Shown here in pieces: positions 24,195-28,944 of a DNA stretch of 64,000 nt. The DNA is taken from NCBI GenBank assembly GCA_003577165.1, contig QEUM01000001.1, forward strand, positions 248,001 to 312,000. Reading direction: 5' to 3'. This stretch comes from Armatimonadota bacterium. GTDB lineage: Bacteria; Armatimonadota; Fimbriimonadia; Fimbriimonadales; ATM1. The notes below the pieces were generated by a model. It was not told the DNA's origin. It worked only from the letters and a program-made list of their open reading frames with translations, and did no database searches. Position numbers and translations under genes: made by a program. Each line of letters starts with the position of its first letter. The stretch's first letter is position 1.

Positions 24195-25076
24195 TTAGGC
24201 AGCGCTGCCGTCGTAGGTGTGCATCTGGCTTCTTCCCTTTCGCTTCGCTTCGTAGAGCGCTTCGTCCGCATAGGCGGTCAACTGGTCGGCCGTACAACCG
24301 GGAAAGCTCTCGGCGATGCCGATGCTCAACGTGTACGGCACCGGGTCCGTCTGTTCCCTCGAAGCCTCCAGAACGCGCTCTGAGATTCGGATCGCAGTAG
24401 GCAGGTCGGCGTCCACTAAGAGCGCCGCGAACTCGTCTCCGCCCAACCGGGCCAGGAAGTCCCCACTCCGAAGATTCGCCTTCAGCGACGAAGCGACCCT
24501 TCGCAGGACCGAATCCCCCTCGGAGTGCCCGTACCGGTCGTTGAGCCGCTTGAAGCGGTCCACGTCCATCATCAGGAGGGCCATCGGCCTGCCTGACTTC
24601 GAGAACGCCTCGACAGCCCTACGAAGCCTCTCTTGAAAGGCGCGGCGGTTTCCGAGCCCCGTGAGCGGGTCCGTAAGGGCGAGTTTCTCCAGCCGCCGGT
24701 TGGCGTCCAGCAGCTTGGCGTTGTCGGACTCCAGTTCGTGGAGGCAGGCCACGACCTGGGCGGCCGAGTCCACGAGCCGATCGTTCATCTCGTCGCTCCG
24801 CTTTAGCCTCGCCTCGAGGAGTTCCGCCCTTTCGTGCGTTCTGGCTACCAGAGCCGCGAGCGCCTCGTTCCGCCTTCTGATCGCAAGCGCAAGTTCTCGA
24901 ACCGGCGATGGGGTCCAAGAAGGCAGTGACAGTCCGGAACTTGACTCATCACTCATGAGTTCCGACGCCAAAAGCTTGAGTGATCTGCGAAGGTTGCGCG
25001 TCGTCAACCAAGCGACGACGCAAAGCAGGACTGAGGCCGCAGAGATTAACGCTAACGTAATGGATTCGGTAGCCAT
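24195..25076 (-). CDS. Membrane-anchored diguanylate cyclase (GGDEF)
   Basis: The 293-residue protein has one N-terminal membrane helix (residues 7-26), a coiled-coil region (about 75-130) and a complete GGDEF domain. The domain begins with LTDPLTGLGNRRAF, contains MMDVDRFKRLNDRYGH, and has an intact GGDEF. An RxxD product-inhibition site (RSGD) stands exactly five residues before the GGDEF. It should make cyclic di-GMP. With only one membrane helix and no sensor domain, its signal may come through the coiled coil. The gap upstream (25077-25299) has no gene. Confidence 0.94.
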   Translation of the reverse strand: MATESITLALISAASVLLCVVAWLTTRNLRRSLKLLASELMSDESSSGLSLPSWTPSPVRELALAIRRRNEALAALVARTHERAELLEARLKRSDEMNDRLVDSAAQVVACLHELESDNAKLLDANRRLEKLALTDPLTGLGNRRAFQERLRRAVEAFSKSGRPMALLMMDVDRFKRLNDRYGHSEGDSVLRRVASSLKANLRSGDFLARLGGDEFAALLVDADLPTAIRISERVLEASREQTDPVPYTLSIGIAESFPGCTADQLTAYADEALYEAKRKGRSQMHTYDGSAA

Positions 25077-25299: not shown

Positions 25300-26514
25300 A
25301 TGCCGAGGTTTGCATACAACGCTGTCGATCCATCAGGACGATCCATGAAGGGCGTCCTGGAAGCGGAAAGCGAGGCGTTTGCTCTCCAGAAACTTCACGA
25401 CCAGCAACTCCACGTAACGGACATTCGCGAGACGCGAGCCAAGGGCGAACCTCGAAGCGGCGGCCTCTTCAAGCCCAACAAGGCAAAGCTCAAGAACGTC
25501 GTGGTTTTCAGCCGCCAGTTCGCGACGATGGTGGACGCAGGAATCCCGATTCTCCGGTGCTTAGAGATTCTCAGCACGCAGACGAAGGACCCCGTCCTCA
25601 AGCAATCTGCGGCCGAGGTTGCAGGAGACGTGCGCGGAGGACTTACGTTGAATGAGTCGCTGGCCAAGCACCCGACCGTATTCAACAAACTCTATGTCAA
25701 CATGATTCGCGCGGCCGAAGTTGGCGGCATCCTAGACATCATTCTGGAAAGGCTTGCAAGCTTCCTCGAATACGAACTGGAAGTTCGAGGCAAGATCAAG
25801 AGCGCCATGATGTACCCCGTCCTGGTGCTCTGCTTCTCGGTCCTCATGCTCTTCGCACTCTTTACGTTCGTCCTTCCGAAGTTCAAGGAGATCTTCAAGG
25901 GCATGGACGTGGAGATCCCGCCCGTCACCAACTTTCTGTTCAGCGTCGGCGACATCTTCCAAGCATATTGGTGGCTATTCCTGATCCTTGGCGCAGGGCT
26001 CTTCGTCGGGGTGCACATGTGGAAGCGAACGGAGAAGGGCGCTTATCAACTCGACTTCATGAAGTTGAAGTTTCCCATCGTTGGCGAACTCGTCCTCAAG
26101 ATGTCGATTGCACGTTTCAGTCGAACCTTTGGCACCCTCATCTCCTCAGGCATTCCCATAATGCGCGCGCTGGAGATCGTCGGCGAGACTTCGGGCAACC
26201 GGGTCATCGTCGAGGCGATCGAGAACTGCCGCGTCTCCATTCGAGAGGGTCAGAAACTGAGCGCCCCGATGGCTACGAGCGGCCTCTTCCCGGCCATGGT
26301 TACGCACATGGTGGACATCGGCGAAGAGAGCGGCCGGCTCAGCGAGATGCTCGTGAAGGTCGGTGAGTTCTACGATGCTGAGGTCGAATCCACCGTCAAG
26401 GGACTCACTTCGATGATCGAGCCGATGCTCATCATCTTCATGGGAATCATCGTCGGATTCATTGCGATCTCCGTCATGACGCCCATCTTCAAACTCGTCA
26501 ACTCGGTCAAGTAG
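25300..26514 (+). CDS. pilC: Type IV pilus / type II secretion inner-membrane platform protein PilC
   Basis: The 404-residue protein is the polytopic platform of a type IV pilus or type II secretion system. Two repeated GspF domains are seen, each starting with the pattern FSRQFATMVDAGIPILRCLEI and FSRTFGTLISSGIPIMRALEI. Membrane helices lie near residues 170-190, 220-240 and 375-395, and the ending is typical (MTPIFKLVNSVK). GGAGGG precedes the ATG. The ATPase and pilin genes are not next to it. The sigma-GGDEF gene follows after a structured leader. Confidence 0.93.
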   Translation: MPRFAYNAVDPSGRSMKGVLEAESEAFALQKLHDQQLHVTDIRETRAKGEPRSGGLFKPNKAKLKNVVVFSRQFATMVDAGIPILRCLEILSTQTKDPVLKQSAAEVAGDVRGGLTLNESLAKHPTVFNKLYVNMIRAAEVGGILDIILERLASFLEYELEVRGKIKSAMMYPVLVLCFSVLMLFALFTFVLPKFKEIFKGMDVEIPPVTNFLFSVGDIFQAYWWLFLILGAGLFVGVHMWKRTEKGAYQLDFMKLKFPIVGELVLKMSIARFSRTFGTLISSGIPIMRALEIVGETSGNRVIVEAIENCRVSIREGQKLSAPMATSGLFPAMVTHMVDIGEESGRLSEMLVKVGEFYDAEVESTVKGLTSMIEPMLIIFMGIIVGFIAISVMTPIFKLVNSVK

Positions 26515-26534: not shown

Positions 26535-26628
26535 CCGCCTCTGCGAACACGGATGTAGCATCGCAGAGGCGGATCTGAAGCGGCTAGGAAGGCCGCTTCG
26601 ACAGGATCGCCGGAAGGAACCGGCGGTC
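26535..26628 (+). promoter_or_regulatory. Three-hairpin leader with GGA in every loop, before the sigma-GGDEF gene
   Basis: Three consecutive hairpins fill the gap between pilC and the next start. P1 (26535-26572) has a 12-bp stem and a 14-base loop containing ACACGGATGT. P2 (26577-26599) has an 8-bp stem and loop TAGGAAG. P3 (26605-26628) has a 9-bp stem with one G-U pair and loop AAGGAA. GGA in hairpin loops is what CsrA/RsmA proteins bind, and the P1 loop differs from the known high-affinity core ACARGGAUGU at one base. No T-run follows P1, so a simple pilC terminator is unlikely. The sequence could also be a separate small RNA. Confidence 0.55.
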
Positions 26629-26646
26629 GAATCAACGGAGGGATTA

Positions 26647-27903
26647 ATGTCGAGCAGCGCTGACCGCGTGAACTACGCGGAGCATCTGGTCCAGGAGTAC
26701 GTGCGCACGCGGGACACCGACGTCCGCGACAGAATCGTGCGTCTGCATACAGGCATGGTGGAGCGAATCGCGCGGCGATACGCCGGGCTCGAGCCCCATG
26801 AAGACCTCGTGCAGGCGGGATTCCTTGGGCTGCTGAATGCGCTGAATATGTTCGAGCCGCAGAAGGGCGTCAGGTTCAACACGTACGCGACGCACCTCGT
26901 AGCAGGCTCGATCAAGCACCACCTCCGAGACAAGACGAAGATCATTCGCGAGCCTGCCTGGCTTCAAGAAGTGCGGCATCGCGTGAACCGCACGGCTGCA
27001 CAACTTCAGCAGGAGTTCGGCCGCGGCGCCTCCCCCGAGGAGATCGCCAATCGCACGGGTCTTCCCAAGGAAACCGTCGAAGAGGTGCTGTCCACGGATG
27101 ATCTCTTCCGCGTTGCAAGCCTCACAGCCCCCCCCTCCTCGGAAGAAGACGATGGCGAGCAGTTCGACCTGGGCGACGATGGCAGGGATCAGATCTCCGT
27201 CGAAGACAGGTCCGTCCTCGAGAATGCGTTCCAGCAACTCCGCGACCTTGAGCGAACCGTGCTCGGCCTGTTCCACTTCGAGGACCTGAACCAAACCGAG
27301 ATCGCCGCGCGGCTGGGAATCTCCGGGAACTACGTCTCACATGTCTTGCGCCAAGCCACGGCGAGGCTCCGCGCGATCTTTGCGAACGACGATCGAATCG
27401 GCCGGGCTCTCATGAAGTCGGAGGGAGATCCCCAAACCGACGTTTTGTGCGAAGAGACGGGCGCGTACATGGAGGCTTACCTTCTCGCCCGACTCGACGA
27501 GGAGTGCGCTCGGGCATCCTGCAACGATTCCGTCGTTGGATTTGTCCATGTTCGTTTCGACGGGCTTGACAGCCTGAGCACTTTCTACGGGCCCACGGCC
27601 GTGATGTCGTTCCTTGCAGACGCTGCCGAGTTCCTAAGGGCCGGCGTGCGCAGGCTCGACATGGTCGGCCGTCTCGGCTCCACCGGATTCGGCATCATCC
27701 TTCCGGGCGCTGGAGAGTCCGTGGCATCCGTGCGAGAGCGCCTCGCGAGCCGCCTCACAGCGTGGGTCAGAAGGTCTGTCGGCTCGAGCAACTCCGTGAG
27801 AGTCATGATCGGAGACGCGTACTATCCGGCAAACGGACGCAACGCCAAGCGAATCGTCGAGTCGATCCACCTGGAACGGCTCGACGAGAAGAAGGCGGCG
27901 TAA
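26647..27903 (+). CDS. SigB/F-type sigma factor fused to a degenerate GGDEF domain
   Basis: Residues 1-245 are a sigma-70 factor of the SigB/SigF/SigG type. Region 2 has HEDLVQAGFLGLLNALNMFEP and VRFNTYATHLVAGSIKHHLRD; region 3 follows; region 4 has LNQTEIAARLGISGNYVSHVL. Residues about 262-410 follow the GGDEF fold pattern (FVHVRFDGLDSL, FLRAGVRRLDMVGRLGSTGF, IILPGAGESV). The signature is GSTGF (344-348) and the usual GH..GD region is lost, so it should not make c-di-GMP. It could still bind a nucleotide or act in dimerisation. GGAGGG precedes the ATG. Confidence 0.85.
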   Translation: MSSSADRVNYAEHLVQEYVRTRDTDVRDRIVRLHTGMVERIARRYAGLEPHEDLVQAGFLGLLNALNMFEPQKGVRFNTYATHLVAGSIKHHLRDKTKIIREPAWLQEVRHRVNRTAAQLQQEFGRGASPEEIANRTGLPKETVEEVLSTDDLFRVASLTAPPSSEEDDGEQFDLGDDGRDQISVEDRSVLENAFQQLRDLERTVLGLFHFEDLNQTEIAARLGISGNYVSHVLRQATARLRAIFANDDRIGRALMKSEGDPQTDVLCEETGAYMEAYLLARLDEECARASCNDSVVGFVHVRFDGLDSLSTFYGPTAVMSFLADAAEFLRAGVRRLDMVGRLGSTGFGIILPGAGESVASVRERLASRLTAWVRRSVGSSNSVRVMIGDAYYPANGRNAKRIVESIHLERLDEKKAA

Positions 27904-27933: not shown

Positions 27934-28944
27934 GTGACTCGTCTCACGCACATGGTCGACTGCGCCGGTTGAGCGAGCAAGCTGGGGTCATCCCAACTCG
28001 CGGAGGTTCTGCGAGCATTGCCGAACGTCGCTCACCCTGACCTGCTCGTCGGGTTCGATACCTCCGACGATGCGGGAGTTTTTCGCGTCTCTGACCATGT
28101 CGCCATCGTGCAGACGATGGACTTTTTCACACCCATCGTCGACGAGCCGTATGCCTATGGATCGATCGCGGCCGCGAATGCGCTGAGCGACGTGTATGCG
28201 ATGGGAGGCAAACCGATCACCGCAATGAACATCGCCTGCTTCGATCCGGAGATGGCCCCACCTCAGGTTTGGGCCGACATCCTCCGGGGGATGGCTGACA
28301 AGTGCGAAGAAGCGGGAGCAGTCCTCGTGGGCGGCCACACGGTCGAAGACAAGCAGCCAAAGTTCGGATTAAGCGTGACGGGCATCGTCGACCCTGACAC
28401 CGTGTTCGACAATCGCAATGCGAAAGAGGGAGATCGCGTCTACCTCACCAAGCCGCTCGGCATGGGCATCGCTACCACCGCAGCCAAATTCGACGACCCG
28501 GTCGTGAAAGAAGGCGGAGAGGAAAGCGCATACGCGACGGCCGTGAGGTTTATGGCGGAACTGAATCGAATCGGTGCGGAATTCGCCCACTCTGTCCACT
28601 CGCGCTGCGCGACGGACATCACCGGATTCGGACTCGCGGGCCACCTCTTCAACATCGCGCGCGCATCGAGCGTCACGATTCGGATCTATCACGACCAACT
28701 TCCGCTGCTGCCCAACATCGAGCAATTGATTGAGGCTGGGAACGTGCCTGCCGGAGCGAGGAAGAACGCGGCGCATCTCGGCGACGCGCTGCATTTCTCG
28801 GATTCGGTTCCCACGTGGATGCGAACTTTGGTAACCGACCCTCAGACGAGCGGCGGACTCGCTGTCTTTAGCAAGGAGGAGACGGAGGAGTATCCGCTCA
28901 TTGGATCTGTCGAGGCGGGCCCACCTCGAATCGTCGTGGATTGA
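27934..28944 (+). CDS. selD: Selenide, water dikinase, selenoprotein with in-frame UGA (Sec) at codon 13
   Basis: SelD makes selenophosphate from selenide and ATP for selenocysteine and selenouridine synthesis. From 28018 on, the frame gives a normal SelD core (QTMDFFTPIVDEPY, NALSDVYAMGGKP, TDITGFGLAGHL, DPQTSGGL). That core alone lacks the N-terminal catalytic part. Reading back in frame to the GTG at 27934 restores it, with a UGA at 27970-27972 in the context DCAG-U-ASKLG. There, Sec or Cys is expected three residues before the essential Lys. With Sec the protein is 336 residues, a normal length. A standard gene caller would start too late. Confidence 0.88.
27970..28001 (+). promoter_or_regulatory. 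Candidate bacterial SECIS hairpin after the selD UGA
   Basis: Directly after the UGA, GCGAG (27973-27977) pairs with CTCGC (27997-28001). Inside, TGGG (27983-27986) pairs with CCCA (27992-27995), closing the loop GTCAT. The loop starts with G-U, as in known bacterial SECIS elements. It begins 14 bases after the UGA, slightly closer than the usual 16 or more. Confidence 0.6.

Follow-up and report, generated by a model that had tools for sequence, protein, structure and literature searches.

Organization of the locus

We analysed a stretch of 64,000 nt (hereafter the window) from a Fimbriimonadales genome of the phylum Armatimonadota (GCA_003577165.1, contig QEUM01000001.1). In this window, 132 nt separate pilC from a gene that encodes a sigma factor with a GGDEF domain (the sigma-GGDEF gene), and this intercistronic stretch folds into three tandem hairpins with GGA loops. 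The features, all on the plus strand, are as follows.

25300 to 26514, plus strand: pilC/gspF, type IV pilus or type II secretion inner-membrane protein, directly 5′ of the leader
26535 to 26572, plus strand: hairpin 1, outer stem CCGCCTCTGCGA/TCGCAGAGGCGG of 12 bp, inner ACA-CGGA-TGT element, GGA at 26551
26577 to 26599, plus strand: hairpin 2, GAAGCGGCT-AGGAA-GGCCGCTTC, 9 bp including one G-U, loop GGA at 26587
26605 to 26628, plus strand: hairpin 3, GATCGCCGG-AAGGAA-CCGGCGGTC, 9 bp, loop GGA at 26616
26636 to 26642, plus strand: ribosome site CGGAGGG in an ACGGA context, GGA at 26637, 21 nt after the GGA of hairpin 3
26647 to 27903, plus strand: sigma-GGDEF gene, putative CsrA target, ATG at 26647, SigB/SigF-like sigma regions 2, 3 and 4 plus a degenerate GGDEF domain

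A first, sequence-only reading had reported a GGA in every loop and one more in the ribosome site, and the letters confirm all four. The stem lengths given there (12, 8 and 9 bp) held for hairpins 1 and 3; hairpin 2 has 9 bp, one of them G-U, rather than 8. In hairpin 1, ACACGGATGT differs by one base from the CsrA SELEX core ACARGGAUGU, as had also been noted. The minimum-energy fold contains all three hairpins and reaches −84.2 kcal/mol versus a shuffle mean of −63.6 (z −5.3, with no shuffle as stable), and the leader sequence is present as a single copy in the genome.

According to published sequence rules, direct CsrA targets have ANGGA at the ribosome site, at least three sites, and pairs of sites 10-60 nt apart (PMC4066749), and this leader agrees with those rules. 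A(N)GGA sites start at 26549, 26586, 26603, 26614, 26635 and 26639, and the one at 26635, ACGGAGGG, is that of the ribosome site. The loops ACGGAT, AGGAA and AAGGAA present the GGA, preferably as ANGGAN, that characterizes the hairpin loops of a glgC-type leader, and the 21-nt gap between the last loop and the ribosome site is within the range that one CsrA dimer can bridge (10-63 nt). The length of the stems (9-12 bp) counts against a CsrA reading, as most SELEX ligands have at most four contiguous pairs (PMC7652899).

To set a within-genome background, we used 168 kb of this genome with 145 predicted gene leaders, and a fold-based scan took the place of a perfect-stem scan, to which hairpin 1 is invisible owing to its inner loop. 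Three GGA loops were reached by two of the 145 leaders, namely this one and another with weaker stems, and 112 leaders had none. Shuffles of the present leader gave an expectation of 0.48 GGA loops versus the three found (p ~0.02). The pattern CANGGATG was rejected as a marker, being uninformative with 390 occurrences in the genome. The single-genome evidence for the GGA loops is moderate, and the case rests on the comparison with relatives.

Conservation of the leader in related genomes

Full-length orthologues of the sigma-GGDEF gene are encoded in 53 of 61 genomes (this one counted), and G040 carries a fragment at a contig end. The named records that encode the sigma protein and match best come from Fimbriimonadales and Armatimonadetes MAGs. 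In the relatives, pilC usually lies upstream of the sigma gene, an order that is conserved in most of them. The 53 orthologous leaders contain 101 GGA hairpin loops versus 15 expected from shuffles, and no trinucleotide is more enriched in loops than GGA and AGG, which overlap.

Hairpins further upstream in family f2 (genus g12) initially seemed to be strong support for CsrA and were then dropped. Their palindrome, GCACGGACANNNNTGTCCGTGC, recurs 30-97 times per genome, often in tandem, in each of the four genomes searched (G030, G034, G036 and G042); as a dispersed repeat it carries no information on CsrA. Because of this repetitiveness, we recomputed the key figures without f2. In 15 of the 16 f2 leaders, the ribosome site is itself part of a palindrome, GCTCAGGAGGAGC, with the stem GCTC/GAGC.

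With f2 left out, 35 leaders have a ribosome-site GGA, and 31 of these also form a hairpin with GGA whose perfect stem has 5 bp or more; in 26 of those 31 this hairpin lies 20-31 nt upstream of the ribosome-site GGA (median 25 nt). Hairpin 3 is this ribosome-site-proximal hairpin, and its loop, position and spacing are kept in the relatives. A(N)GGA is present at the ribosome site in 34 of 37 leaders outside f2. A trinucleotide control for the region 24-45 nt before the start returned GGA in 25 of 37 leaders and AGG, which overlaps it, in 17; every other trinucleotide was limited to seven leaders or fewer.

Outside f2, the stems differ between genera. Covariation was counted in two register classes of the conserved hairpin, A2 and A8, the latter without f2. 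Having a stem was part of the reason for picking a hairpin, and each was aligned around its GGA, so that the share of paired cells (93.3% in A2 and 84.7% in A8) and the invariance of the GGA columns are biased upward; this selection does not produce the variety of pair types, the flanking A and T, or the position relative to the ribosome site. In both classes, 8 of 9 pairs changed on both sides, with 32 double-change cells versus 11.2 in shuffles for A2 and 21 versus 6.0 for A8, and slid registers of A2 paired at most 50%. Covarying stems around a fixed loop GGA, which the sequence-only reading had proposed to look for, are thus found in the orthologous leaders. A covariance model of the hairpin and ribosome site, built from eight leaders with Ns placed in the linkers to keep the stem register, yielded 14 matches in the 61 genomes at E 0.01 or better; all of them were located directly upstream of the sigma gene, and six came from outside the training set.

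There are exceptions. The leaders of G004, G031, G039 and G049 contain GGAs and no stem of 5 bp. Two genomes of 1.5 Mb, G054 and G055, kept csrA, fliW and the sigma-GGDEF gene and lost both the pilC synteny and all leader GGA, for which a loss of CsrA control is a possible explanation. Among the orthologues of Chthonomonadia, a similar hairpin occurs in some leaders (L167, L168 and L175), and others are without it. We regard the comparison with relatives as decisive: judged from it, the leader exceeds chance.

CsrA, FliW and the sigma-GGDEF protein

An absence of csrA from the genome would have spoken against CsrA control. We found csrA (E 6.8e-25) adjacent to fliW (E 3.9e-34) in a flgK-flgL-fliW-csrA cluster, a neighbourhood of flagellar genes that is the one expected for flagellar control by CsrA-FliW. 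The CsrA protein matches solved CsrA chains across the RNA-binding domain and keeps the VHRxEIY motif with Arg44. Because csrA occurs in 59 of the 61 genomes, its absence is useless as a control. Six genomes (G001, G007, G017, G037, G041 and G043) are without flagellin, FliW and the sigma-GGDEF gene and yet keep csrA, so that CsrA probably has other targets there. We also examined the flagellin leaders of this genome, and the flagellin gene leader L096 (contig C23 of G000) has the hairpin GGAGCG-ACGGAT-CGCTCC shortly 5′ of a CACGGAGG ribosome site, so that CsrA probably acts on flagellin as well.

The distribution of the sigma-GGDEF gene coincides exactly with that of flagellin: 54 of the 61 genomes have both, and the remaining seven have neither. 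These seven comprise genus g2, four members of genus g10 and one genome that is 65% complete, and this grouping corresponds to at least two independent losses, not to seven. Because a canonical FliA is encoded separately, two sigma factors are linked to flagella, the sigma-GGDEF protein being the second.

The GGDEF domain of the protein is degenerate, with RRLD kept and GSTGF in place of GGDEF; the GG(D/E)EF site of an active diguanylate cyclase is therefore lacking. Among 25 aligned orthologues, RxxD (R335, D338) is invariant and the GG(D/E)EF motif is absent from all 25. An intact GGDEF diguanylate cyclase is encoded at 24195-25076 on the minus strand, divergent from the pilC-sigma gene pair, and in both proteins RxxD and the motif are equally far apart. 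GGDEF domains that keep only the RxxD site often are c-di-GMP receptors, and the sigma factor may sense c-di-GMP via this site.

On the other side of the sigma-GGDEF gene, selD (window positions 27934-28944, plus strand) has an in-frame TGA at codon 13 that is read through (VDCAG-U-ASKLG), for which reason selenide water dikinase is itself probably a selenoprotein. A plain ORF caller gives selD a late start, at TTG 28018.

A putative translational leader and its alternatives

Judged from the comparative evidence, this is a real, conserved translational leader of CsrA type. Because the motif and its distance to the start codon are kept while the other hairpin sequence changes, CsrA very probably controls the sigma-GGDEF gene, as the sequence-only reading had suggested; the presence of csrA and fliW, the retained loop GGA and the covarying stems support this view. 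We consider it highly likely that the stretch between pilC and the sigma gene is a cis-acting, CsrA-binding leader of the glgC type, in which CsrA bridges a loop and the ribosome site, translation is repressed and FliW probably provides relief. One face of a CsrA dimer would bind the loop GGA of hairpin 3 and the other the ribosome-site GGA 21 nt downstream. Bridged in this way, CsrA would keep the ribosome off the sigma-GGDEF mRNA and repress its translation, and hairpins 1 and 2 would offer extra CsrA sites that raise occupancy. Binding by CsrA is predicted here, and we infer repression from the architecture.

FliW counteracts CsrA in both B. subtilis and C. jejuni (PMC7652899, PMC4894983), and a relief of the same kind is likely here. 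Free FliW would remove CsrA so that the sigma factor is made, with FliW being freed as it is in those two systems once the hook is complete and flagellin is exported.

The sequence-only reading had offered a CsrB-like decoy as an alternative, and several tandem GGA hairpins are indeed what an RNA that titrates CsrA would have, be it a separate RNA of CsrB/RsmZ type or a sponge within the mRNA; in C. jejuni, the flaA mRNA acts as a sponge besides being a target (PMC4894983). We nevertheless consider a decoy very unlikely because the conserved hairpin is kept at a fixed distance from the ribosome-site GGA and the start codon, the stretch is intercistronic, and no Csr/Rsm family of Rfam matches it. 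Rfam searches of the leader, run with gathering as well as relaxed thresholds, returned no relevant family, and a Termite-flg match (E 0.83) was set aside as chance level. A CsrB/RsmZ decoy sRNA would be a separate, terminated RNA independent of the ribosome site, whereas scans of the leader found neither a sigma-70-like promoter nor a terminator. FliW and CsrB-type sRNAs are, moreover, anti-correlated (PMC7652899, PMC4894983). The intercistronic position and the long GC-rich stems, above all that of hairpin 1, would also suit hairpins that serve transcription, as a terminator, an attenuator or an RNA-processing site between pilC and the sigma gene, with GGA in the loops only incidentally. However, no T-run follows any of the hairpins, and the fixed GGA loop, the covarying stems and the fixed spacing to the ribosome site would be left unexplained, so we give this possibility just as little weight.

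Somewhat less improbable, if still unlikely, is that CsrA binds the leader as an activator that stabilises the mRNA, for instance, or opens a structure at the ribosome site, as CsrA activates flhDC, moaA and ymdA in E. coli (PMC7652899). Against this stands the layout, because a loop GGA about 25 nt from a ribosome-site GGA is that of the repressed glgC leader (PMC7652899). The leader might finally be a dispersed palindromic repeat (a REP-like element) that came to lie here by accident. This explanation is likely for the upstream hairpins of genus g12, given the copy numbers of GCACGGACANNNNTGTCCGTGC, but it is ruled out for this genome, which has no such palindrome and a leader of single copy; the stems also vary between genera outside f2, and its probability is close to nil.

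Comparison with known systems

The preferred reading, a repressing CsrA leader, has its closest model in E. coli glgC, where a CsrA dimer spans the distance from a hairpin loop to the ribosome site (PMC7652899). Both leaders have a loop GGA just upstream of a ribosome-site GGA and multiple sites (PMC7652899), whereas the present one differs from glgC in its longer stems, its three tandem hairpins, its target and its phylum. With B. subtilis hag and C. jejuni flaA, the latter having two repressing GGA stem-loops (PMC4894983), it shares CsrA together with FliW and a flagellar context. The putative target, unlike that of hag and flaA, is a sigma factor gene and not flagellin; one flagellin leader of this genome resembles the sigma-GGDEF leader. 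Stem-loop 2 of Pseudomonas RsmZ, CCCCG-AAGGAU-CGGGG, has a loop almost identical to that of the conserved hairpin, AAAGGATT, and binds RsmA with a Kd of ~276 nM (PMC4066749). That stem-loop is part of a decoy sRNA, whereas the hairpin described here belongs to an mRNA leader.

Two further mRNAs for comparison, E. coli rpoE and P. aeruginosa algU, encode sigma factors of the ECF type that, unlike the sigma-GGDEF protein, carry no GGDEF fusion. CsrA or RsmA acts on, or binds to, these two sigma factor mRNAs at the ribosome site (PMC7652899, PMC4066749), which is what we predict for the sigma-GGDEF mRNA.

Implications

CsrA regulons are little known outside Gammaproteobacteria (PMC4894983), and in the literature searched a single paper names both CsrA and Armatimonadetes, with just one passing mention of CsrA. 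The type of leader is known; its target, its occurrence in Armatimonadota and the strict link to flagella appear to be new in the literature searched. A CsrA target could be named from comparison alone, with a mechanism that is open to test, and this putative target is a sigma factor confined to the flagellated genomes of the order Fimbriimonadales.

It is possible, if on the doubtful side, that flagellated Fimbriimonadales have a motility switch in which CsrA-FliW acts on the translation of a sigma factor whose catalytically dead GGDEF domain is a c-di-GMP receptor, so that the state of flagellar assembly and c-di-GMP meet on one sigma factor. Binding of c-di-GMP by the degenerate GGDEF domain would mean that a sigma factor is a direct target of this second messenger. 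A CsrA leader at this position would also fit the proposal that flagellar control is the older role of CsrA-FliW.
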